Assembly: GCA_016125225.1 (NCBI GenBank)
Contig: WGME01000007.1
Span: forward strand, 186,001 to 250,000
DNA: 64,000 bases
Direction of reading: 5' to 3'
From: a bacterium
GTDB lineage: Bacteria; Planctomycetota; Planctomycetia; Planctomycetales; Planctomycetaceae
Made by a program: the position numbers and the translations under genes. The notes below the pieces were generated by a model, which searched no databases, was not told the DNA's origin, and saw nothing but the letters and a program-made list of their open reading frames with translations. Shown piece after piece: positions 8,867 through 55,050 of the stretch (position 1 is its first letter; the number at the start of each line of letters is the position of its first letter).

Positions 8867-9853
8867 TTACGGGTTGGCATCGGTCGAGATATCGGAGAGA
8901 TTCGAAACCGGCGAAAGCTGATCGGTAAACGAACTGGGATCGAGCGCTCCCCCCGACTGGTGGGCCTCGTGAATGAAGTTACGGATCTGCATCACCGGTG
9001 GCCCGATCAGCAGGATGAAGACCGGCGGAGCCAGGCACAGAATCACGGGAAACAGCATGGCAATCGTGGTCTTGTTGGCCCGTTCTTCAACACGTTGACG
9101 GTACTGCCGACGCATCGTATCGGCAAATTCGGTTACGGCCGTGGCCACATGTGTTCCCGTCACCTCCGTCTGGCTGACCAGCGATGCCAACGCATTGACA
9201 TCCTGCACATTCATGCGACGCGAGAATTCCTTGAGGGCTCGCTGCATGGTATCTGCCTCGGCATGCTGGCGAACGACTTCGAGTTCGATGGCGATGTCTC
9301 GATGATAGAACTCGATGTCGCGGGCCACTCGTTCCAGGCCGTCCCGCAAGGAGAGACCGCCCGTAAGACACATGCGGATGATATCAAGGGCATCTGGCAA
9401 TCCCCGCTGGATGCGATGCAACCGTGTGCTGGACTGGTACGTCAGAATGAGGCGGGGCAACACATAGGCCACCACCGACGCTAAGCCTGTCGCAACGAGA
9501 ATGGTTTGCGGCAGTTTCGTTGTCGGATCAGCCAGGACTGCCGAAACACCACCGACCAGCAAGGTCCCCAACGCCACGAAGTTTCTTGCAGCGAGGTATT
9601 CGACCAGTGCCTCCGAGCCATAATATCCGGCCCTGCGCAGATCCTGGCTGAGGGCCTCTTGTTCGCCGCTCAGCAGGGGGACCGAACCCGCCATCGCGCG
9701 ACGAAACCGGCTGGGACGCTCTGGCCGACTGATGCGTTCGACATCGGAGATATGACGTAGCCGCTGACGGGCTCGCACGGCAGTCATCCCGAACACCAGC
9801 GCCGAGAGAAAGCTCACGAGGAACCCGGTGATTGTTGCAACATCAATCCACAT
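8867..9853 (-). CDS. tadC: TadC-like type II secretion system F family protein
   Basis: The 328-residue product has one N-terminal transmembrane helix, two helices near residues 90-140, a cytoplasmic T2SSF domain (G-L-P-D-A-L-D-I-I-R-M-C-L-T-G-G onward) and a C-terminal hydrophobic pair (V-I-L-C-L-A-P-P-V-F-I-L-L-I). This is the usual layout of TadC, an inner-membrane platform protein for Flp/tad pilus assembly. It follows the tadB gene by 18 bp and is the last gene of the minus-strand tad run. It converges with the ceramidase-like gene 12 bp away, with no clear terminator between them. Confidence 0.88.
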   Translation of the reverse strand: MWIDVATITGFLVSFLSALVFGMTAVRARQRLRHISDVERISRPERPSRFRRAMAGSVPLLSGEQEALSQDLRRAGYYGSEALVEYLAARNFVALGTLLVGGVSAVLADPTTKLPQTILVATGLASVVAYVLPRLILTYQSSTRLHRIQRGLPDALDIIRMCLTGGLSLRDGLERVARDIEFYHRDIAIELEVVRQHAEADTMQRALKEFSRRMNVQDVNALASLVSQTEVTGTHVATAVTEFADTMRRQYRQRVEERANKTTIAMLFPVILCLAPPVFILLIGPPVMQIRNFIHEAHQSGGALDPSSFTDQLSPVSNLSDISTDANP

Positions 9854-9871: not shown

Positions 9872-10801
9872 TTAACGTTCAGACCGCATCAACCAGACCA
9901 CCCAAATCAGCCCGATGATTTCGAGCACCATGGCCAGCAGCAACAGTGACCGCCCTACGACATCATCAAAGAGGACGAAGAGATGGTCGCGGCGGAATGA
10001 GAACAGAAAGATGACAATCAACGGTGCAATCGATGCAACAACCAGTGTCGACATCCGCCCGGCCGCCGTCGCGGCCCGCACCTGACGCTGTGCGGCGAGG
10101 CGTTCACGAATGACCGTGGTCATCCGTTCGAGTGTTTCAGACAGTGGGCCACCCGACTGACGTTGCACGATCAAAGTCGTCGCGAGAATCTGCATTTCCA
10201 TCACTCGCACGCGGTTTGCCAACGATCGCAGTGTCTTTTCGAAGCTGCGACCGAGGTTTAACTGCTGCTGACAACGCAGAAATTCTTGAGCTAAAACCCC
10301 CTCGGTCTCCTGAGAGACCAGTTCAATCGCCTGTTCGACGCTGCGGCCTGCCCGCGTTGCTCGTGCCAGGGTTTCGATGGCGTGGGGTAACTGGTCGCGT
10401 AGCTGTCGCATCCGCTTCGTGCGAATGGATGACAGAAGCAGCAGCGGAATCGCCATGCCCGACATAGCACCCAAGACGCCCATTAAAGGCTCATCGTGAT
10501 ACAACCACATCGTACCGCCGAGGATCAATCCCCCCGCGATCACGATCTGAAAAATTGTCCCCGATGTCAGCTCGGTGCCCGATTCCTGCACCAGACGGTC
10601 AAAGGCCAGATCGATTTTGCCAGATAAGTTCTGGCTCGCGGGCCGGTCGAATACATCGGGCGTGCGACGCAGTCGCAGCGAAGACGGAGCAGCGGCCGTA
10701 CCTCGACTGATGGCCCACCATTCGCGCACCACCAGTCCCACGGCCAACGAAATGGCCGAGATGGAGACAAAGGCGGTAATGAGGATGACTTCGTAACCCA
10801 T
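9872..10801 (-). CDS. tadB: TadB-like type II secretion system F family protein
   Basis: The 309-residue product has an N-terminal helix (residues 5-25), a helix pair near 85-125, the T2SSF core (Q-L-P-H-A-I-E-T-L-A-R-A-T-R-A-G-R-S onward) and C-terminal helices ending near the chain end. It is the expected partner of TadC in the inner-membrane platform of tad/Flp pilus machines. The ATG is preceded by GAGGAG. The gene sits between the ATPase and tadC genes in the same orientation, which supports the assignment over a general GspF. Confidence 0.9.
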   Translation of the reverse strand: MGYEVILITAFVSISAISLAVGLVVREWWAISRGTAAAPSSLRLRRTPDVFDRPASQNLSGKIDLAFDRLVQESGTELTSGTIFQIVIAGGLILGGTMWLYHDEPLMGVLGAMSGMAIPLLLLSSIRTKRMRQLRDQLPHAIETLARATRAGRSVEQAIELVSQETEGVLAQEFLRCQQQLNLGRSFEKTLRSLANRVRVMEMQILATTLIVQRQSGGPLSETLERMTTVIRERLAAQRQVRAATAAGRMSTLVVASIAPLIVIFLFSFRRDHLFVLFDDVVGRSLLLLAMVLEIIGLIWVVWLMRSER

Positions 10802-10882: not shown

Positions 10883-12244
<1,362 letters not shown>

Positions 12245-12360: not shown

Positions 12361-13473
12361 TCAACGGCTGATGGAAACCATGGTGCGACCGGGAATCACC
12401 TTTTTCACTTTGGTTTCCATGGTCAGGTCGGGCGATGATTTCGACGGATCTTGAGCGATCGGTGTGCGAATCTTGCCGCCGTTCTGCAGCAATTGATAGG
12501 TCATCTCGGGGGCTTTGCCGAATTCGACGACTGTCTTTTCCGGCCCGAGATAGATTTCCATTTGCCGTGTGGGCATGACCGCAGGAGCCCCCAGCAAATC
12601 GTCCAGGGTAATTCGCTCGACATTCTTGGTTGCAAGTTGCGATTCGAGAGTACCGGACGCATTCTTCTGATCGAGTGACGTGGCCGCTGTAGTTAGCCCC
12701 GTCAGATTGGCGGGCAAGGGCGTTGGTTCATTACTCAGGTAAGGTTGCATGCTGTCGAGTTCAAACGGCAGCAGCTCGATGTCGTCTTCACTGCGAAGGG
12801 TCAGCGACAACTCACCTCGGCCTTCCACCACCTTGAGGATCTTCGCCTGCTGTGGAGTGACCGATAAGGTCACGGTGCCATCCTGCTCGACTTCCACCTG
12901 CTGACCAGGAACCACATTGGTAGAGAGAGCCAGCACTTCCACGCGTTCCAGCAGAGTGAGCGTGACTTCCGGGCGATCACCTTCGGGGCGTGATCGGAAC
13001 AGCACATCGACCACCGACCCCGGACCGGCAAAGCCCTGGACAGCACCGACGTTTTCGATGGAGATGGTGACGCCACGCAGACCGGGCTTCAAACGCTCGG
13101 CAATGCCCGGGCCACCCATACCGGCATAGAAGTCATCCGACAGAAACGCATCACCCTTCTTCAGGGCACGCTTCACCGTCCGGCCGTTGACTTGCTCCGG
13201 ATTTCGCATGAACGCCTGCTTGGCATACGGGCTGGCGTCGTACTTTTCCGGTGAGAGAGAGACGAGAGCAATTTCATTGATGGTCAGAGTTTGACCAGCT
13301 GCGATGTCCATGGCAGCGGTGGGCACGATCACGTTGGAAATGATCGGTTCGGGTTCGGGTAAGGCCACCATCGGCAGTTGCTTCAACTGCTGACGGACAA
13401 CAAACGCCCCGCCCAGACCGACGAGGATCGCAAAAATCACGACCGTCATGGTCCCTGAATTGATCCGCGCCAT
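12361..13473 (-). CDS. cpaB: Flp pilus assembly protein CpaB/RcpC
   Basis: The 370-residue product has one N-terminal membrane anchor (V-V-I-F-A-I-L-V-G-L-G-G-A-F-V-V). A SAF-type beta-clip domain follows (about residues 45-110, with A-M-D-I-A-A-G-Q-T-L), then the RcpC domain (about 115-235), which contains G-L-R-G-V-T-I-S-I-E-N-V. CpaB proteins act in the periplasm next to the secretin of tad systems. A GGAG ribosome-binding site precedes the ATG. The C-terminal region (about 240-370) is longer than in typical CpaB and has no recognised motif. The gene is transcribed from the pilin-like gene toward cpaF. Confidence 0.9.
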   Translation of the reverse strand: MARINSGTMTVVIFAILVGLGGAFVVRQQLKQLPMVALPEPEPIISNVIVPTAAMDIAAGQTLTINEIALVSLSPEKYDASPYAKQAFMRNPEQVNGRTVKRALKKGDAFLSDDFYAGMGGPGIAERLKPGLRGVTISIENVGAVQGFAGPGSVVDVLFRSRPEGDRPEVTLTLLERVEVLALSTNVVPGQQVEVEQDGTVTLSVTPQQAKILKVVEGRGELSLTLRSEDDIELLPFELDSMQPYLSNEPTPLPANLTGLTTAATSLDQKNASGTLESQLATKNVERITLDDLLGAPAVMPTRQMEIYLGPEKTVVEFGKAPEMTYQLLQNGGKIRTPIAQDPSKSSPDLTMETKVKKVIPGRTMVSISR

Positions 13474-13703: not shown

Positions 13704-14051
13704 TTACGTATTCTCGTCCGAGCGACCGTCATCACACAGGGTGATGCACTGAGCACCGCCACGGGGATTCTGATCGTCTTCGGCCCGGCGGTTTTCGCAG
13801 AAGTCCGCCCGGTCATGGAAACGCACACCAGCGGTGCTGCCGCAATGGCCGCGAATCTGACCGTAAGAATAGCTCTGATCGATTTCGGAAATCGCGTCGG
13901 CGACGTCGGCCAACTCGATCACCACAACATCCCGGACCGTGGTGAGACCCACGATCAGACCGATGACTGTGACGGTCGAGATCAGAATCAGTTCCGTCGA
14001 CACGACGAAACCGTTCTCATCACGCCACAGCCGTTTACACAACGACTTCAT
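13704..14051 (-). CDS. Small pilin-like protein with a Cys-rich tail, linked to the tad genes
   Basis: The 115-residue product has a short charged N terminus (K-R-L-W-R-D-E-N-G), then a hydrophobic stretch starting F-V-V-S-T-E-L-I-L-I-S-T and running about 25 residues. The polar C-terminal half has at least four Cys. The layout recalls Flp prepilins, in which a Gly precedes the cleavage site and a Glu lies in the hydrophobic segment. Here the Glu is at +6 after the Gly rather than the usual +5. A strong ribosome-binding site (AGGAAGAGGAG) precedes the ATG. It is upstream of cpaB on the same strand with 230 bp between. A pilin or pseudopilin role is an inference from layout and position. Confidence 0.72.
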   Translation of the reverse strand: MKSLCKRLWRDENGFVVSTELILISTVTVIGLIVGLTTVRDVVVIELADVADAISEIDQSYSYGQIRGHCGSTAGVRFHDRADFCENRRAEDDQNPRGGAQCITLCDDGRSDENT

Positions 14052-14354
14052 TCGGCAGACTCCTCTTCCTCGTTAAATGGGGGATTCCACTCGGCCCGCT
14101 CCCGCAGATATCACAAGCCGAGACCGTGAGCCTTCTGCAGGCCACGAACCGTATCTATGCACAAACCAGACCAGCGGGAGGGATTCTCTGAAAACCATCT
14201 GTCCGGCTCATCCGGGACCACCGATCGTACGGGGTATACCGGAGAGATTGGTCGGCATGTTCAGAGACTGAAACAATGGGTACAGCATGGGATCTCAGTC
14301 GACACTGCCGGGACTGCGATTGATGAGCAGAGAGCGCCTGAATTGTAAACAGAG
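14052..14354. other. Intergenic stretch upstream of the pilin-like gene
   Basis: These 303 bp separate the membrane-anchored toroid-like gene from the pilin-like gene, both on the minus strand. No frame has a ribosome-binding site with protein-like composition. The stretch is the natural place for a promoter of the tad run, but I could not identify a convincing sigma70 or sigma54 site. Confidence 0.5.
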
Positions 14355-15554
14355 TTAGCGCGGTTCGCGCTGCGGTTCCGGCAACACTACGGCATGCGGT
14401 TCTACGCCATGCCACAGCGATAATGCCCGCCCGGCGTGGGTCAGGAAGGGATAGAAACGCCGGGTTTCCTGAGGCGTCAGTTCAAGAATCGCCGAGACGA
14501 GCCATGTCGAGGCTCTTGCGATGATTTCACGCGGCGGTTGTACCTCAGCGGGGGCATACAGCCACCACTCCAGCACGTGCCCCGTCGCCAGAATTCGGTC
14601 GGCCTGCGTGCCCATCGGCCCTGTGAAACTGTACGGTTCGCCGTCCCATTCTGTTCCCGGCCATCCACTTTTCCAGTAGCCCTCGGCATGTTGAGAGGCA
14701 ACAAGTCGACCCGTTGCGTCATGCAAATGCGATATCACGTGACCACGCATGTCCGGAGAAAGATAACGTTCGGATTGATCGCGCTGCAGGAGTGCCGCGA
14801 GCGTATAGAGTCGATGTTGCCCAAAGCATACCCCTTGCGACAATCGTTGCCGCATGAGCCGGTCGGCCATGTGATCCCAGGTAATGATCTGGCCCTCAGT
14901 GCTGGTCCATTCATGAACGTGTGGGTAGTACAACAGCCAGACCATGGCCGACCACTCGTATTCTTCCTGATTCAAGCGGAAGTCGCGGAAACATTCCGTC
15001 AGGGCCTCGCGGAGCGGACGTTCTCCTTGCGGTGTCAGCACGGGATAGTCCGATGGCGTACCGACTTCTGCTAATCCGGCCAATGTGTGGTCGACATGGC
15101 TCGACGATGCGGCCCCCTGTCGCGTACGGAATTGCACCCCGGCCGGTGATGTCTCCGACACCATCAAAAGTGGTTCGGTCTCTTGATCCCATGCTGCCCG
15201 GAAAGCCCGGTGATCGAGCAGCAATTCACGCAATTCCACGCCCGAAAGGCATTCCGGATCAGCAAAGGTGGCTGCGACACCCCAGAACCGCAAAGCATGA
15301 TCGACATGATTGATGCTGGGACGTCCCTGGGCCAGGCGAGGCTGCAAACGTTCCAGCACCAGTTGCAAATCGGCGTCAGAAATCAGAGCCGAGTCATGAT
15401 GTGAGGGGGCGATCACGGCCGGTTGCGTGACCGGCTGGGGCAAAATGCGATTCGCCTGGAGTTGCGTGTATCGATAGCCGCCGTAAGCCAGCCCGGCAAC
15501 CAGCAAGCACCCATGAGCCACGGTTATCAGGAAAGCGCGTTGCGATTTGGTCAT
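14355..15554 (-). CDS. Membrane-anchored conserved hypothetical protein, possible alpha/alpha-toroid fold
   Basis: The 399-residue product has a single N-terminal transmembrane helix (A-F-L-I-T-V-A-H-G-C-L-L-V-A-G-L-A-Y-G-G), then a soluble region rich in His, Trp and Tyr. The repeated helical segments (for example around V-D-H-A-L-R-F-W-G and G-H-V-L-E-W-W-L-Y-A) recall alpha/alpha-toroid domains such as terpene cyclases, but this is only an impression. The ATG at 15554 overlaps the stop of the membrane protein gene (ATGA). That overlap fixes the start and shows translational coupling, so I discarded a 37-codon upstream extension of the frame. The function is unknown. Confidence 0.8.
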   Translation of the reverse strand: MTKSQRAFLITVAHGCLLVAGLAYGGYRYTQLQANRILPQPVTQPAVIAPSHHDSALISDADLQLVLERLQPRLAQGRPSINHVDHALRFWGVAATFADPECLSGVELRELLLDHRAFRAAWDQETEPLLMVSETSPAGVQFRTRQGAASSSHVDHTLAGLAEVGTPSDYPVLTPQGERPLREALTECFRDFRLNQEEYEWSAMVWLLYYPHVHEWTSTEGQIITWDHMADRLMRQRLSQGVCFGQHRLYTLAALLQRDQSERYLSPDMRGHVISHLHDATGRLVASQHAEGYWKSGWPGTEWDGEPYSFTGPMGTQADRILATGHVLEWWLYAPAEVQPPREIIARASTWLVSAILELTPQETRRFYPFLTHAGRALSLWHGVEPHAVVLPEPQREPR

Positions 15555-17218
15555 GGGTGTCGCTCCGCGGTGGTGACTTCCAACGGCGTTTGTGTGCGGC
15601 TGACGGTCTCCAGCGACCGGCGCTGGTAGACTTGGCTCAAGGAGTCTTGAAAGACCCGTTTCCATTCGGAATGGGCGGCGAGTGCGGCGGACAGATCGGG
15701 TTGCAATTCCCGACAGACCACCACGGTGTTAATCCGATAGCGATCGAGCCGATCAGTCCAACCGACATCGGCCGCCGAGATGCAGAGATAATCCTGCCAG
15801 CACTGTGCCGGCAACAGGTGAATAGAATTCGTGGTCGCCATCACACGGACATTTGTCGGTCCGCGCCAGGCGAGCCAGTCACCCCACCATTGGGGGGCAT
15901 AGATGAGCCCCTGTGGTGCGGTTTGCTGGAGCCAGTTGGTAACACCGAGGGGCGTCTGATGACTCAGTTGCTGCGTCAATGGACGTGGTTTTCCGCCCAG
16001 AATCGGACGACTTATCGGTGAGAGGCAGAACGTCAACCAGACCGTGAGGACCGTCATCGCCGTACTCGCCAACGATTTTTGCCGCCACCAGCCGGCCGAA
16101 CCTGACAATTGACTGGTGAATTGCTGACAAACATCGGCGAGATGTGGTGCGAGAACAATCGCCCACACCGGCGCGTACCAGGCAATCATGCGGACCCGCA
16201 AACAGACGGCCGCATTGAGGGCGAGCAGCAGCAGGACTTCAGCGGACGAAAAACTACGGCGGCTCTTTCGCAGAACCACAGCGGTCAACACCCAGGAAGC
16301 GGCCATCGGCAGCCCTTCCAGTGACAGCATCTCGAGTGGATACCATTCGAGCACCGATTTCAGATTGGGATGCGTCGGAAAGGCGATCGTCTGCACGATC
16401 AGATCAATTCCATAGGGATTGACGCAGCAACCTGCGATCGCAAATTCCAGTGCCAGCCATTCCCGGTGAGCCTGCGGTGAACAAAAGGCCGCCCGCCAAT
16501 CGCGACTGAGACACCAGCGATCCCATAACCGCCCGACGACCGCAATCCCGAGAACACCCACACCCACGATGAACGACCCATGCAGGTTCGCCCACAGGGC
16601 AAACAAACAGCAGAGACCACACGGCAAAAGCCAGCGATTCCTGGATTTGACCCTGAGAAAGAGCGAACCGCCCGCATCGAGCCAGTTTTGCCGAGCGAGG
16701 ATCAACAACAGCGTCGCACAACCAAGTTGCCCAAAAATTTCAGGTCGTTGCACCGCATGACGGCTCCAGGCCACTCCAAAGGCCAGTAATGCACAGACCA
16801 TGGCGATGACACCGGAACCAGACCGTTGGTGGGCGGCTGCCACCAGAAGCAACGATGTGAGAAGTACCACCACAGCGAACAGGTCGGCCAAACCTTCCAC
16901 CGGCCAGGCACGATCCACGAGAGCGAAGACGACTTGCCCCAACCACGCCGTTGCCAGCACGGGGACACCGGTCGCGAGTTCCGCAAACGGGTCCGTCGTC
17001 GGCAACTGACGGTGGCTCAAAATCCAATCGCCATAGGCGACGTGTCCCCACAAGTCGGAATGAAACAGGGGCAAGTAGTTGTGATACAGGAACAGCAGAG
17101 CGAAACCAACCACGGCCACCAGTTGCAGCGGTGTCACCCAACCCGTCATCCGTGGCTGTGTCGCCACTGAATCGGTGGGAGTAGTCGCCGGGGTTTCGGC
17201 TTCGAGTAAGGTCGACAT
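15551..17218 (-). CDS. Polytopic membrane protein, GT-C glycosyltransferase-like
   Basis: The 555-residue product has about ten hydrophobic helices. The first loop contains the acidic segment F-H-S-D-L-W-G-H-V-A-Y-G-D-W-I-L after helix 1, the position where GT-C enzymes carry their catalytic Asp. The C-terminal quarter is soluble and contains Y-A-P-Q-W-W-G-D-W-L-A-W-R-G. A GAGGG ribosome-binding site precedes the ATG. It follows the family 2 glycosyltransferase gene by 13 bp and overlaps the next gene, so the three form one operon. A role in transferring sugars from lipid carriers is plausible from context; the donor and acceptor are unknown. Confidence 0.78.
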   Translation of the reverse strand: MSTLLEAETPATTPTDSVATQPRMTGWVTPLQLVAVVGFALLFLYHNYLPLFHSDLWGHVAYGDWILSHRQLPTTDPFAELATGVPVLATAWLGQVVFALVDRAWPVEGLADLFAVVVLLTSLLLVAAAHQRSGSGVIAMVCALLAFGVAWSRHAVQRPEIFGQLGCATLLLILARQNWLDAGGSLFLRVKSRNRWLLPCGLCCLFALWANLHGSFIVGVGVLGIAVVGRLWDRWCLSRDWRAAFCSPQAHREWLALEFAIAGCCVNPYGIDLIVQTIAFPTHPNLKSVLEWYPLEMLSLEGLPMAASWVLTAVVLRKSRRSFSSAEVLLLLALNAAVCLRVRMIAWYAPVWAIVLAPHLADVCQQFTSQLSGSAGWWRQKSLASTAMTVLTVWLTFCLSPISRPILGGKPRPLTQQLSHQTPLGVTNWLQQTAPQGLIYAPQWWGDWLAWRGPTNVRVMATTNSIHLLPAQCWQDYLCISAADVGWTDRLDRYRINTVVVCRELQPDLSAALAAHSEWKRVFQDSLSQVYQRRSLETVSRTQTPLEVTTAERHP

Positions 17219-17231
17219 CCGCGGTAATCCC

Positions 17232-18323
17232 TCAATGACTCTGAGGCGCTAACTGATCGGCCGGGTTAGCGCTCACACCCAGTGGATACCGGCGGTGCTG
17301 ATCGGCTGGCACCGTTTGCGGACGTGTCCGGCGGATTTCCGCGACACAGAATGCTGGCCGCCCTCGGACCTGATCGAGAATTCGCGACAGGTATTCCCCG
17401 ATAATCATCAAACCACAGGCGTTCAGGCTCAAAAAGGTGAGAATGGTGGCGATGGTCAATCCCTGAGGAGCGGCCTCGGATCGCCAGAATTCACTCAAGA
17501 CGCATCCCCACGCTGCCAATGTCCCAACCAGTGAGACACCGAAAAACGCGGTGAGCAATTGAACCGGAGCATGCGAAAAGCTCCAGATCGCCGTGCTGGC
17601 CAGGCGACAGAGGCCCCACCAACTGACACGCGGGTGACCATCGTGCCGGGCCAAGCGTTCCACGGGGACGCCCGTCTGCCGATATCCCACCCAGGCCCGT
17701 AAGCCGGGAAAGTAACGTTCACGCTCCGGCAGTGACAATATCTGCTGCACGACTGCCCGATCGAGCAGCCCAAAGTTCCCTGCATCCAGCGGTTGCGGAG
17801 TTTCGGCGACCGCATTGAACAGGCGGTAGAACCCCGCGAACAGCAGTCGCTTGAACCACGATTCCTTCCGCTGAGTGCGGACCGCATAGACGACATCGTC
17901 TCCGGCTGCCCATCGCTTCAGGAACAAGGGAATCGCCCGCGGGTCGTCCTGCAGGTCGGAATCCATGATCACCACCACGTCGCCGGTGGCGGCTTCCAAT
18001 CCCGCCTGCAACGCCGCCTGATGACCAAAATTCCGGGAAAGATGGACGACAACCACATGCACATCGGGGAGCGCTAACTGATCCAGCCAGGGACCACTGC
18101 CATCTGTGGAACCATCGTCGACATACACCAGTTCGGCTTCGTCCGAGCAGGTCGCCAGGACCGTGGTTAACCGGTCGACGAGAATCGGTAACGCGGCTTG
18201 TTCATTAAAGACCGGCAACACAACCGAAACAACCGGAGCATCCCGGCGCGGACCCGTGGTCATCGGGAGGACTCGCGGCGAGCTTCCGTCATCGGCGGCG
18301 GTTGCGGCTTCTGTAATCCACAT
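17232..18323 (-). CDS. Family 2 glycosyltransferase with C-terminal membrane helices (DPM/ArnC-like)
   Basis: The 363-residue product starts its GT2 fold with V-S-V-V-L-P-V-F-N-E. It has the V-Y-V-D-D-G-S-T-D-G nucleotide-binding segment, the M-D-S-D-L-Q-D-D-P metal-binding motif, and two C-terminal transmembrane helices near residues 255-335. This is the layout of enzymes that load a sugar on polyprenyl phosphate at the inner membrane, such as dolichyl-phosphate mannose synthase, ArnC and GtrB types. I chose the ATG at 18323; the frame opens at a TTG 12 codons earlier, and another ATG lies 20 codons later, nearer the fold start. The product would supply lipid-linked sugar to the GT-C-like protein encoded just downstream. 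Confidence 0.9.
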   Translation of the reverse strand: MWITEAATAADDGSSPRVLPMTTGPRRDAPVVSVVLPVFNEQAALPILVDRLTTVLATCSDEAELVYVDDGSTDGSGPWLDQLALPDVHVVVVHLSRNFGHQAALQAGLEAATGDVVVIMDSDLQDDPRAIPLFLKRWAAGDDVVYAVRTQRKESWFKRLLFAGFYRLFNAVAETPQPLDAGNFGLLDRAVVQQILSLPERERYFPGLRAWVGYRQTGVPVERLARHDGHPRVSWWGLCRLASTAIWSFSHAPVQLLTAFFGVSLVGTLAAWGCVLSEFWRSEAAPQGLTIATILTFLSLNACGLMIIGEYLSRILDQVRGRPAFCVAEIRRTRPQTVPADQHRRYPLGVSANPADQLAPQSH

Positions 18324-18439
18324 CGGTCGTTTGGTTTCCGTTCCAACGTCGGTACGCAATTCGCAATTCGTGATGGTTGCAAACGGTGTTCCGTCGCAGA
18401 GGCGGCGACCTGGTTAGAAAACGCAGATCGAGGGCGGCA

Positions 18440-20098
18440 GTGTCAGCAGACGTTATCAAGTCACCAGACACGCAGAATTTGACCAGTCACGGTTCTATGC
18501 CGTTGTTTTGTACCGCCATCTTGCTGCTGGTGGCAGTGCCGTTGTTTCTAAGGATGCCGTTAACCAACGACGCGGAATTATTTGATTTGCAGGCCGGGTC
18601 GTTAGATCAGGGGTCGGTTCTCTATCGGGATTTTCTGGAACCCAACCTGCCGGGGGTGATCTGGTTTCACCGTATTGCTCGTACGCTGTTTGGTTCCAGT
18701 ACAGAAGCCCTGCGGTGTTTTGATCTGATAGTGTGGGCAGGCACCTTGACGGCGGTCGCCTGGATCTTGCGGCTGGCGGGCGCTTCCCGGCAGATCATCG
18801 GTTGGACCGTTTTCGGACTCTCCGCGTGCTACCTGTCGCAAAGTGAATGGTGTCATTGCCAACGCGATGTCTGGATGCTGTTCCCGGCTTGCACCGCGCT
18901 GGCATTACGTGCCCGGCTGACGATCGTCTCTAACGAGAATGCTCGGAAACATTGGCTACTTCTCGCTTTCATCGAAGGACTTGGCTGGGGACTGGCAGTC
19001 TGGTTGAAGCCCCATGTGGTCATTCCCGGCACAGCCGCGATCCTGGTGAGCGGGCTTTATGCCACCCGGAAAATCCAGTGGTTTCAGGAGATTCTTGCCA
19101 TCTTGGCCGGAGGCTTGCTGGCAGGATGTCTGGGAATCGGTTGGATGTGGCAAACCGGTTGCTGGCCCTACTTTCTGGAGACGGTCCGCGATTGGAATCC
19201 CGATTACTTTGCGGCTGGCCGGTCGCATTGGAGCTGGAGCCGTCTGATTGCCATTCTCTGGCGGTTGTCGCCGTGGTCGCTGCTACCGTTCATCGCGGTG
19301 TTTGCGGGTTTGCAGTGGAGCGTTCGCCGTCGGGAAGACTTTGGCCGCTCTGCGAATAACTCAGCCGCAGTATCAGCCTTGGTCGCGGTGTTCTCGCTGG
19401 GTTGGATATGTCAGGTGTTGCTCTTGCAGCATCAATTCGATTACGTCTATCTGCCAATTGTCCTCTTGGCGCTCCTGACTTTTGCTGTCCTGGCCTGTCA
19501 CTCGAACTCATCAAGTTCACGGTGGCACATCGGTTGGCTGGCATTTGCCGGGATGGTGATCGCGACGTCCCCGTTGACCAGCCGCGATCGTTTGGTGGCC
19601 TGGCCAGCGTGCATGACCGGGCCGAATAGTCCGGCACTACAAGATCAGTTGTCGCAGTTGCATCACCCTCGACAGGATCATTTGGCCGAGATTGCGGAGT
19701 TCCTGACGACACAGCATGTCGAAGTACGCGACGTCTGTTGCTACAACAGCGATTGTGTCTCGCTGTACCGGCGGTTATCGTTGTTGCCCCCCGTCAAATA
19801 CACCTATTTCTTTGAAACGCTGCAGTTTTTCCCCGACCGTCGCGGACAAGTTCTGGCGGAGATCGAACGGCAACCCCATCGGTTTGTGGTGACGGATCTC
19901 ATGAGCTGCGGACTGACGCAAGTGGAAGCGGAAGCGATTGGGCCGGAGGGGCCATTGGCACCGCCCCCAGCCTACCGAGATGCTCCACGAGATCTTTATC
20001 CCTGGAACTGCCCGGTAGTTTTCCGGGCGGGCAGCTATCTGGTGCATCGAGTGCCTGAGACGGTTCCCACCGTGAAAAGCGTGGTCCTGGCTGATTGA
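18440..20098 (+). CDS. Polytopic membrane protein, GT39-like glycosyltransferase candidate
   Basis: The 552-residue product has many hydrophobic segments. The first is followed by L-T-N-D-A-E-L-F-D-L, an acidic first-loop motif like that of GT-C/GT39 enzymes that use polyprenyl-phosphate sugars. The last 150 residues are soluble. The start is uncertain: the frame opens with TTG at 18377, but GTG at 18440 has a GAGGG ribosome-binding site five bases upstream, and ATG at 18497 begins directly at the first helix. It is divergent from the GT2 gene, so the pair may share regulatory DNA. It is convergent with the sigma54-type regulator, with only 2 bp between the stop codons. Confidence 0.75.
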   Translation: MSADVIKSPDTQNLTSHGSMPLFCTAILLLVAVPLFLRMPLTNDAELFDLQAGSLDQGSVLYRDFLEPNLPGVIWFHRIARTLFGSSTEALRCFDLIVWAGTLTAVAWILRLAGASRQIIGWTVFGLSACYLSQSEWCHCQRDVWMLFPACTALALRARLTIVSNENARKHWLLLAFIEGLGWGLAVWLKPHVVIPGTAAILVSGLYATRKIQWFQEILAILAGGLLAGCLGIGWMWQTGCWPYFLETVRDWNPDYFAAGRSHWSWSRLIAILWRLSPWSLLPFIAVFAGLQWSVRRREDFGRSANNSAAVSALVAVFSLGWICQVLLLQHQFDYVYLPIVLLALLTFAVLACHSNSSSSRWHIGWLAFAGMVIATSPLTSRDRLVAWPACMTGPNSPALQDQLSQLHHPRQDHLAEIAEFLTTQHVEVRDVCCYNSDCVSLYRRLSLLPPVKYTYFFETLQFFPDRRGQVLAEIERQPHRFVVTDLMSCGLTQVEAEAIGPEGPLAPPPAYRDAPRDLYPWNCPVVFRAGSYLVHRVPETVPTVKSVVLAD

Positions 20099-20100
20099 GG

Positions 20101-21507
20101 TTAGGTTTCGATGGCACTCATCAACCCGAGCCGTTTGAGCTTCTTGTACAAACCCACCCGGCTGATACCCAGAGCTTGAGCCGTTCGCGTGCGATTGTGG
20201 TCGTGTGCCGCGAGGGCCTGTTCCAGAATTTCTCGTTCGCTCCGGGCTAACTGCTGGACCATCAGATCGGGCGGCGAAACGGAACTGATAATCGTCGCGG
20301 AATGTTCCCGTTGAGGCTCGGCGCGAGTGGCAAACAACTTCGGAGACAAGTCCCGCACGGTCAGCCGGCGATCTTCTGAAAAGAGAACCGCCCGCCGCAT
20401 ATGATTTCGCAATTCCCGGAGATTGCCGGGCCAGTGATAGCCTTGCAGCACACGCAGGAATTCGCGATCGACTTGATTGATTTCGATCTGATGTTCGACG
20501 CAGCTTTCCTCGATAAACTGCAAGGCAAAAGGAACAATATCGAGGACACGCTGCCGGAGTGCGGGGAGCCGAAATTCCAGCACATTCAAGCGATAGTAAA
20601 GGTCGCTGCGAAACTCGGCTCGGGCCGTTAATTCTTCCAACTCCACATTCGCGGCGACAATCAAGCGGGCTTCCGACACACGCGTTTCGGTCGAACCGAC
20701 CAGTTCGTATTCTCCCGATTCAATCACGCGTAACAGTTTGACCTGTTGCTTCAAATCCAGAACATCAATTTCGTCCAGCAGCAGCGTCCCGCGTCCGGCA
20801 GCCTGAAAACGGCCGATCTTGTTCCGCTCGGCCCCGGTAAACGCTCCCCGCGTATGACCGAAGAGTTCACTTTCGATGAGATCGACTGGCAGACTTCCGC
20901 AGGCCAGATGTTGAAACGGGCGATCGCGGCGCGGTGAGCGGTGATGGATCAAACGGGCCAATGTCGTTTTGCCGGTCCCGGTTTCGCCGATCAGCAGAAT
21001 CGTGACATCGCGATGGGCGACTCGCAGCAGGTCATCTAAGGTCGGGAAGAATTCCGTGCAGTAGGTCCGCAGACTCAAGCCCCCCGCTTCCACGGTTTTG
21101 CACACCGGAAGCAACCTGCCACGTGGTGCCGAAAGGAGTTCGGCAAATTGAGGCGATACGTCATCCCAGCAAACTTGATCCCCCGTAATCGGCAGATGAT
21201 CGCACGCCAATAACGTTAACGCGCTGGCTAATGGACGGGGATAGGCCGCCCCCCCGACGGTGACCACGTTGAGCCGGGGGATGGTCTGCAGCAGCAGATG
21301 CTCGAGGAGTGCCGCCGTTTCGGGATGCACTCGTTCGGGACGGCTGTCGATGAACAGCGTGGTGGCCCGATGCTCTTTCAGCAACGCCAGTAAAGACTCG
21401 ACCGATCCGGCATACCGCAACCGGCAGCGGAATTGGGTATCGAGTTGTCGTTCAAGGGATTCATACAGTTCGACATCGTGAATGAATGCTACGGCTTCAT
21501 CAGCCAT
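20101..21507 (-). CDS. Sigma54-dependent transcriptional regulator, Fis family
   Basis: The 468-residue product has an N-terminal receiver-like region (about 1-115) with an Asp in L-F-I-D-S-R-P near residue 54. The AAA+ sigma54-interaction domain follows, with Walker A G-E-T-G-T-G-K-T at 174-181, the G-A-F-T-G-A loop that contacts sigma54, and L-L-L-D-E-I-D as Walker B. The C-terminal Fis helix-turn-helix contains R-T-A-Q-A-L-G-I-S-R-V-G-L-Y-K-K-L. It should activate sigma54 promoters by ATP-driven remodelling. The ATG at 21507 was preferred to a TTG seven codons upstream. No kinase gene is adjacent, so its input signal and targets are unknown. Confidence 0.93.
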   Translation of the reverse strand: MADEAVAFIHDVELYESLERQLDTQFRCRLRYAGSVESLLALLKEHRATTLFIDSRPERVHPETAALLEHLLLQTIPRLNVVTVGGAAYPRPLASALTLLACDHLPITGDQVCWDDVSPQFAELLSAPRGRLLPVCKTVEAGGLSLRTYCTEFFPTLDDLLRVAHRDVTILLIGETGTGKTTLARLIHHRSPRRDRPFQHLACGSLPVDLIESELFGHTRGAFTGAERNKIGRFQAAGRGTLLLDEIDVLDLKQQVKLLRVIESGEYELVGSTETRVSEARLIVAANVELEELTARAEFRSDLYYRLNVLEFRLPALRQRVLDIVPFALQFIEESCVEHQIEINQVDREFLRVLQGYHWPGNLRELRNHMRRAVLFSEDRRLTVRDLSPKLFATRAEPQREHSATIISSVSPPDLMVQQLARSEREILEQALAAHDHNRTRTAQALGISRVGLYKKLKRLGLMSAIET

Positions 21508-21951
21508 TCGTTCTGGCCCTGTTGGCAAGAGTGAGGTCGTTAGCCTGAGTTGACGATTTCGAGTGCGATAGCGCTAACCGCAAATCCTGCTCCCACTCGG
21601 GCTGGCGCTGGCGCTAACCGATCCGATTTGACCGTTTCCAGCGAGAACTCCCGCCCAAAAAAATCTAAGTGTCCGCCAGTTTTGTTTCATTCGCTTAACA
21701 CCTGTTGTGATATGACAACGCGAGTGGTGTTCAGTCGTTGTGTTTCTGCATCACATTCCTGAGTTGTGATGGATGATCGGCAGGCCCGCGAATTCCGGGG
21801 TTCGGCACACCGTCTGCAAAACGCGATGGGTGACCCACACGGAGCGTGTGACGACTCGCCCGATGGAAGGATGCACTGAGTGCCATTCACGTACCTGGAC
21901 CAACCTGCAAAACGGCCACATAGCGTCGACTGCCATTGGCAGTCCCCGCCT
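21508..21951. other. Intergenic stretch with a repeated 10-mer
   Basis: These 444 bp lie between the divergent regulator and M28 peptidase genes. Two direct copies of GCGCTAACCG occur at 21571-21580 and 21611-21620, the second within a longer CACTCGGGCTGGCGCTGG context that looks like the dispersed intergenic repeats of planctomycetes. Both promoters should lie here, but no convincing -35/-10 pair was found. A GTG at 21880, preceded by GGAAGG, could extend the peptidase by 24 codons. Confidence 0.5.
21571..21620. repeat. Direct repeat of GCGCTAACCG (two copies)
   Basis: The 10-mer GCGCTAACCG occurs at 21571-21580 and again at 21611-21620, 30 bp apart, in noncoding DNA between divergent genes. 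A function is not shown. It may be a fragment of a genome-wide intergenic repeat or a paired protein-binding site. Confidence 0.5.
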
Positions 21952-53798: not shown

Positions 53799-54042
53799 TT
53801 AGGCATCCCACTCGATTGCCGCACAAGCGTCAACCTGCGAGGGGAATTTGGTGGCAATTTCCTTGGCGGTCTTGCCGCACGCATGATATCGTCAGAAACC
53901 CGGATGGCGATTGTGAGTTCAGCGGGGGGCATTCGCCTCCTGACTGAGCGATAAGTTTCGGTTATCATTTTGATTCCACCGTCATACTGCGGTGCTCAGC
54001 CTCTCATTATCATCCATTCTATCGACTTCTGCGAGACCAGCG

Positions 54043-55050
54043 ATGTCCCATCGGACGCGACGGCGTACGGCGTTTACACTGATTGAATTGCTGGTCGTCA
54101 TCGCCATCATCGGCATGCTTCTGGCGTTGTTCTTACCGGCGGTGCAGCAGGCCCGCGAAGCCGCTCGACGTACGCAATGCCGCAACAACATGAAACAGCT
54201 GGGATTGTCTTTGCACAATTACCATGGCAGCTACAACACCTTGCCTCCAGGGGAAGTCCAGCAGTCGACGGATGATCTGAAAGGGAATTGGTCCTGGTCG
54301 GCTCAATTGCTCCCTTATGTCGATCAGGCCCCCATTTATCAGCAGATTGATATCGGCAATATGCAGGTGGGAGACGTCTTGGGAGACCCACAATTACGTC
54401 GCTTGCTGGAGACGCCCGTTTCAGCATTTCGCTGCCCCAGCGATACCGGGCCAGTTGTGAACGATGACCAGTACCGCGTGATTCAGGATACGTATTCAGC
54501 GAACTACTACAAACTGGCGACGGCGAACTATGTGGCCGTAAACAGTTCCGGTGTTCCGCGACCGACATTCAATTCCGCGGTTTCCGGGGATAAGGCCCCT
54601 AATGCTCACGCCAATGGTGCATTCTACCGCAACAGTCGGGTGAACTTTCGCGACTTTCTCGACGGTGCCAGCAATACCATTCTGGTGGGCGAACGGTCGT
54701 GGGAGACCTTGGTCAATTCCTCATCGGCTCCACGAGCCGCCATTTTGTACGCCGTTCAGGACAGCCGGGGTGATAACGATGGTGGCTTGAGTGCGGCTCT
54801 AGGATCAGGTCAGCGCCGCATCAATTGCCCAGCCGCTGGCATGGAGTGTCGACGGGCCTTCACCAGTCAGCATGCCGGTGGTGCCATATTTCTCTTCGGG
54901 GATGGAACTGTACGGTTCCTCTCGCAGAACATCGAGCACCGTAATGAGCACGTAGGCAGCCCTGATGAAGGTCTGCTGGAGAATCCCGTCAATTCCGTCT
55001 TTGAATACCTGCTCGCGATTCAGGACGGCCAACTCTTCAACGAATACTGA
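54043..55050 (+). CDS. DUF1559 domain protein with prepilin-like N terminus
   Basis: The 335-residue product starts with a basic leader and [15 protein letters not shown], the type IV pilin methylation motif with Glu at +5. R-E-A-A-R-R-x-Q-C-x-N-N then marks DUF1559 (SBP_bac_10-like). It ends in the [12 protein letters not shown] segment usual for the family. Planctomycetes carry many such proteins and they are thought to be pseudopilin-like secreted or surface proteins; individual functions are unknown. The ATG at 54043 was chosen because the leader begins there; the frame is open for 17 codons upstream. No pilus gene is adjacent. Confidence 0.93.

Follow-up and report, generated by a model that had tools for sequence, protein, structure and literature searches.

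A gene on the minus strand of the window (the whole 64-kb stretch of planctomycete DNA that was analysed) is best explained as that of a pilin belonging to a lineage-specific second Tad (type IVc) system, in which a single natural additional residue precedes the key glutamate; this reading is given a probability of roughly 0.8. The second system very probably occurs in one planctomycete class, next to a Tad locus of the ordinary Flp type that the same genome encodes. Translation of the ORF at 13704-14051 (-) confirmed what the first-pass annotation had noticed: the product has 115 residues, residues 14-20 read G-F-V-V-S-T-E with Glu20 at +6 when counted from the residue after Gly14, and the polar half contains four cysteines (positions 70, 85, 102 and 106), a fifth (position 5) being located in the leader. 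The same annotation had described the protein as pilin-like, which the analysis supports. Since genes for CpaB, CpaF, TadB and TadC come after it (Table 1), the pilin very probably belongs to a Tad (type IVc) system.

Table 1. Features of the pilin gene and its surroundings in the window.
Feature	Position	Strand	Evidence or remark
Pilin gene, 115 aa, stop codon included	13704..14051	-	ORF and translation, homologues, dN/dS
Predicted leader, 14 residues, cut probably after Gly14	14010..14051	-	sequence; Gly14 invariant (13-row alignment A5)
Glu20 codon (+6)	13992..13994	-	sequence; +6 in 92/134 distinct family sequences
Mature pilin as predicted (101 aa), a hydrophobic helix followed by a polar tail that contains C70, C85, C102, C106	13707..14009	-	
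AGGAG, likely ribosome-binding site, 8 nt 5' of ATG	14060..14064	-	by eye
CpaB/RcpC	12361..13473	-	TIGR03177 138.2 bits (cut-off 71); PF16976 1.2e-20
CpaF/TadA motor ATPase	10883..12244	-	PF00437 7.8e-64; TIGR03819 349.6 bits, under cut-off 373.15
TadB platform protein	9872..10801	-	PF00482 8.6e-22; operon place
TadC platform protein	8867..9853	-	PF00482 6.3e-12; operon place
orf436, no family	14355..15665	-	with orf555 adjoins most tad-linked Glu+6 pilins
orf555, no family, multi-pass membrane by eye	15551..17218	-	kept beside orf436
Family 2 glycosyltransferase, perhaps for glycosylating the pilin	17232..18359	-	PF00535 9.6e-29
ORF, no Pfam match	18377-20098		upstream of pilin
Sigma-54 activator	20101..21528	-	PF00158 3.1e-55; relative in same stretch in 5/9 tad-linked places

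The pilin ORF is more than a chance reading frame, as judged from its orthologues, its substitution pattern and its homologues in other genomes. Two genomes of the same genus carry an orthologue with 81% identity. The dN/dS values were 0.16/1.86 against L038 and 0.16/1.20 against L039, with dS near saturation, and purifying selection thus looks to act on the gene; these two loci are probably the same as the two orthologue loci (G002:C7 and G001:C6) rather than additional ones. Homologues were detected in 40 of 59 genomes, this one counted (E <= 0.001), and in a sample of the phylum a match was obtained in 38 of 294 genomes, 37 of which belong to the same class. Structure prediction with AlphaFold2, using three sequences each, reached a pLDDT of 46 for the full protein and 51 for the predicted mature form, so that nothing was concluded on the C-terminal half. 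Protein and profile searches of the PDB returned methionine aminopeptidases as the sole matches (E 0.008 or worse), which were taken as chance.

The pilin shares with Flp/Tad pilins (PF04964) a leader ending in Gly, a hydrophobic helix bearing a Glu and its Tad neighbours, whereas it differs from them in having Glu at +6 instead of +5, a Cys-bearing tail and no Pfam match: searches with the pilin yielded no Pfam family up to E 1 and no NCBIfam match, and the curated cut-off of PF04964 (Flp) was not reached. Its predicted mature form of 101 aa compares with 45 aa for the mature Flp/Tad pilin described in a passage of PMC11067988. When the family profile, whose 13 rows include three Glu+5 relatives, was aligned to Flp using hhalign, the match scored 95.1% (E 3.3e-8), in support of distant homology to Flp, and the profile of short planctomycete Flp-like pilins (A7, e.g. 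on G000:C26) scored 99.0% (E 8.3e-18). Both alignments open a one-residue gap in the interval from Gly to Glu, and past Glu the residues stay in step. The Flp profile also finds the solved chains 8u1k and 8u2b, which we take to be from Caulobacter. The short planctomycete pilins have the same core pattern after Glu and belong to the same gene system, but they are about 60 aa long, tail-less and of the Glu+5 type. Long Glu+5 pilins are found in families f3 and f7 (L074-L077); like the window pilin they are long, with Cys in a tail (two past the helix), and lie upstream of CpaB, and they differ from it in the position of Glu and, in all but one, in the columns occupied by Cys.

The 134 distinct family sequences divide into 92 with Glu at +6, 13 with it at +5, one with it at +4 (with the inner residue of a GG pair as reference) and 28 without it. 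The Glu distance was determined by pattern, and since most of the stretches had been retrieved for their similarity to a Glu+6 query, the fraction 92/134 is biased toward +6. The 13 Glu+5 sequences comprise five short pilins and eight long ones from families f3 and f7. As a control, ordinary Flp pilins were inspected in 22 stretches, 20 of them picked from among the Flp matches and two already in the sample, and Glu was at +5 in all 28. The Glu+6 sequences were split by a rule of our own on residues 40-41 into the window's type (58) and another type (34), the presence of Glu in 58/58 and 34/34 being a matter of construction. Gly14 is invariant in the 13-row alignment, the +6 spacing noticed by the first-pass annotation recurs in 92/134 sequences, and Glu+6 is a real, lineage-wide variant and no quirk of one protein.

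The +5 position is the probable ancestral state, given that Flp and other pilins have it. The pilin trees left a single and a multiple origin of Glu+6 undistinguished: in a tree of 96 rows and 74 columns (thinned at 85%), which was mostly unresolved, the long Glu+5 rows required two changes, and in a tree of 42 rows (thinned at 60%, three odd rows dropped) the grouping of the five Glu+5 rows was not rejected (p-AU 0.246). In an unrooted tree of 27 CpaF proteins, the 12 motors labelled Glu+6 lay on one side of a branch (99/97), with five motors from Glu+5 loci and ten others on the other side. One of these ten, from L063, had been counted as pilin-less despite the presence of two Glu+6 pilins roughly 3 kb away from the TadC gene of that locus; once it is relabelled, Glu+6 no longer corresponds to a single CpaF branch. 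This case weakens the single-branch argument, not the assignment to pilins or to a Tad system.

The residue at +1 bears on the site of cleavage. Phe occupies this position in 83 of the 92 Glu+6 sequences, which would suit a peptidase that cuts after Phe15 and so leaves the mature Glu at the usual +5. The remaining nine, however, have Ala, Val, Ser, Leu or Met there with Gly retained, which fits a cut after Gly and not after +1, and A24 peptidases generally require Gly or Ala ahead of the scissile bond; cleavage after Phe15 is therefore given only a very small chance. For the Tad pilin with the extra residue, we infer the following route. An A24 peptidase encoded elsewhere would cleave after Gly14, CpaF together with TadB and TadC would push the subunit into a filament, and the filament would exit by way of CpaB and a secretin. 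Its core would be formed by the hydrophobic helix, with a tail of about 50 residues lying outside. One residue would have been inserted between the cleavage site and Glu, with the register past Glu unchanged, and Glu+6 would do the job that Glu5 does in other pilins. According to a passage of PMC10191384, Glu5 is considered to pair with the adjacent subunit's N-terminal amine. A lineage with an extra residue before Glu is a natural experiment on this pairing rule, and the shifted Glu makes the role of the acidic residue testable.

The tail would probably be pinned by a disulfide between C85 and C102 and, in this genus, by one between C70 and C106 as well. Of the sequences of the window's type (58 in all), 44 have both C85 and C102, a shift of up to two columns being allowed, 10 have neither and four have C85 alone. 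C70 and C106 were found together in 3/58 (the window protein, one same-genus orthologue and L100), and one more sequence had C106 alone. Conservation of the cysteines, raised by the first-pass annotation, hence holds for the C85/C102 pair and fails for C70/C106. The pattern is what would be expected for one old and one recent disulfide, both bonds being predicted.

In the first 14 places taken from other genomes, a family pilin was located upstream of CpaB-CpaF-TadB-TadC in nine (L046, L047, L048, L051, L054, L055, L056, L057 and L059), with an A24 peptidase gene between pilin and CpaB in L054, L056 and L057; in the other five (L049, L050, L052, L053 and L058) the stretch contained no CpaB gene. 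Within this genome the pilin query matched ten places, among them its own locus and that of the short pilin, and none of the nine other members had CpaB, CpaF, TadB or TadC within the stretches fetched; exceptions to their isolation were one GspE-like match in L043 and the linkage of the short pilin to a secretin. Homologues away from tad genes, which the annotation had regarded as adverse to its proposal, do therefore exist (nine members here and 5/14 places elsewhere), against CpaB linkage in 9/14. The many paralogues far from tad genes would agree with an uncleaved membrane-anchored protein unrelated to filaments, but the operon position and the profile similarity to Flp make this reading extremely improbable. 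At least two PF16976 (CpaB) matches were present in 37/40 genomes with the pilin family and in 1/19 without it, as counted in matches, not genes, and with kinship ignored. Inside family f1 the corresponding figures were 28/31 and 0/6, and outside f1 they were 9/9 and 1/13. In the lone exception without the pilin family, G046, both matches fall in one ORF.

The annotation had also considered a pseudopilin. The best NCBIfam model for the window's motor ATPase is the TadA-family model TIGR03819, and a pseudopilin of a type II secretion system is therefore unlikely. More broadly, type IV filament machines are generally known to drive secretion as well, and the protein might serve to push substrates through a secretin with no surface fibre; the motor and platform proteins are CpaF, TadB and TadC, not GspE and GspF, which renders this quite improbable. 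Upstream of the pilin, orf436 and orf555 have relatives in eight of the nine tad-linked places, L048 being the exception, and were not found in L060-L079, which include the tad-linked Glu+6 places L062 and L068. These two genes and the glycosyltransferase encoded close by may serve in decoration of the pilin.

Searches of the 64-kb window with secretin, peptidase and TadE-like queries returned no relative, and the four A24 prepilin peptidase matches of this genome all lie elsewhere. The same-genus loci L046 and L047 extend beyond TadC into a secretin gene and two others, with counterparts on contig C26 of the present genome. On this contig (G000:C26) a secretin gene (PF00263 6.2e-40) shares its stretch with a short, 60-residue pilin of the Glu+5 type, and in G001 and G002 the short and the Glu+6 pilin are carried by one contig at a distance of about 11 kb. 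From this gene order, the C26 counterparts and the proximity of the two pilins in the relatives, one Tad system appears to be split over contigs in this genome. A self-sufficient system in the window was considered and rejected after the secretin and the short pilin turned up on another contig. Two candidate TadE/TadF genes adjoin the short pilin on C26; one matched TadE at E 0.088, below the cut-off, and the other gave no match, while the L054 relative of the TadE-like gene matched TadE at 4e-6.

The same system thus also encodes a short Glu+5 pilin, which makes the distinction between major and minor subunit ambiguous. The window pilin could be a minor or adaptor pilin of the Tad system, the filament body being built from the 60-residue pilin on C26. 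This tentative alternative, credible if short of even odds, agrees with the usual Flp size of the short pilin, its Glu+5, its presence in 16/59 genomes (E <= 1e-18) and its position in one stretch with the secretin gene here, as well as with the Flp-like minor pilins linked to tip complexes in Myxococcus Kil pili that are mentioned in a passage of PMC12075869. It is the long pilin, on the other hand, and not the short one that adjoins the motor genes in the window, and in some relatives long pilins stand beside these genes in tandem copies. A role of the window pilin in the filament core is somewhat more likely.

Sister pilins that have Ala, Thr, Ser, Gln, Gly or Asp instead of Glu were detected in 24 genomes, at about 1 kb or less from a Glu+6 pilin, a nearness partly due to selection since they were seen in stretches fetched for the Glu+6 neighbour. 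The 28 Glu-less sequences comprise these 24 partner pilins, two fragments, one partial pilin with Asp at +6 and one that is no pilin; four of the partners have Asp at +6 and 20 neither acid, two of the latter having been read by eye. In L051, L055 and L059 the partner is located between the long pilin and CpaB, and in L062 and L068 the pilin in the partner's place retains Glu+6. A passage of PMC10191384 describes the tip subunit of known type IV filaments as lacking Glu5, and the Glu-less sisters are as expected for tip subunits. They resemble tip pilins of the GspK/PilK type, as the window pilin does not, in being Glu-less subunits beside a Glu-bearing one, and differ from them in that their sequences belong to the Tad pilin family; their role is putative. 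A search of the present genome with the partner profile recovered only the ten known places and no Glu-less partner.

A wider and doubtful conjecture is that the planctomycete Glu+6 pilin acts in one type IV system together with the short Glu+5 pilin and a Glu-less partner (the latter in many genomes), the position of Glu marking the place of each subunit in a mixed filament, and that such filaments might account for part of the fibres of 6 or 12 nm in the crateriform structures of planctomycetes. The passages on planctomycete fibres in PMC5394234 give sizes and dextran binding and name no protein, and the link of the pilin to crateriform fibres is a guess; the family would provide candidate proteins for them. 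Tad clusters are mentioned for Planctomycetacia genomes in a passage of PMC6461901. Among the matches listed in a search of the open-licence literature, nothing was found on a Glu+6 type of pilin.

Two further Tad loci were found in this genome. The ordinary Flp-type locus (L060) contains genes for Flp, an A24 peptidase, CpaB and a secretin, with no CpaF found in the stretch. The other (L061, G000:C27:822000-841999) has TadE- and TadG-like genes, the Pfam check of which covered L061, and no Flp or family pilin was recognised in it. It is of a third kind with CpaB, CpaF, TadB and TadC, in which the pilin profile finds none and which is also seen in L065-L067, L070-L073 and L078. The solitary Glu+6 paralogues may be the pilins of this third kind, to which the TadC gene near the two Glu+6 pilins in L063 belongs. 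Four Glu+6 pilin-like genes lie within about 10 kb at G000:C32:44614-55123 (L041), near a sigma-factor-like gene (by eye), with no tad gene found in the stretch. A separate protein encoded at 53992-55050 of the window has a classical FTLIEL pilin start (Glu+5) and is presumably of the planctomycete DUF1559 kind. Unusual tails were observed in two Glu+6 pilin-like ORFs, one 286 aa in length whose tail is a Cys-rich repeat (L027:273-1133, +) and one 439 aa in length whose long tail is rich in Ala and Gly (L032:484-1803, -).
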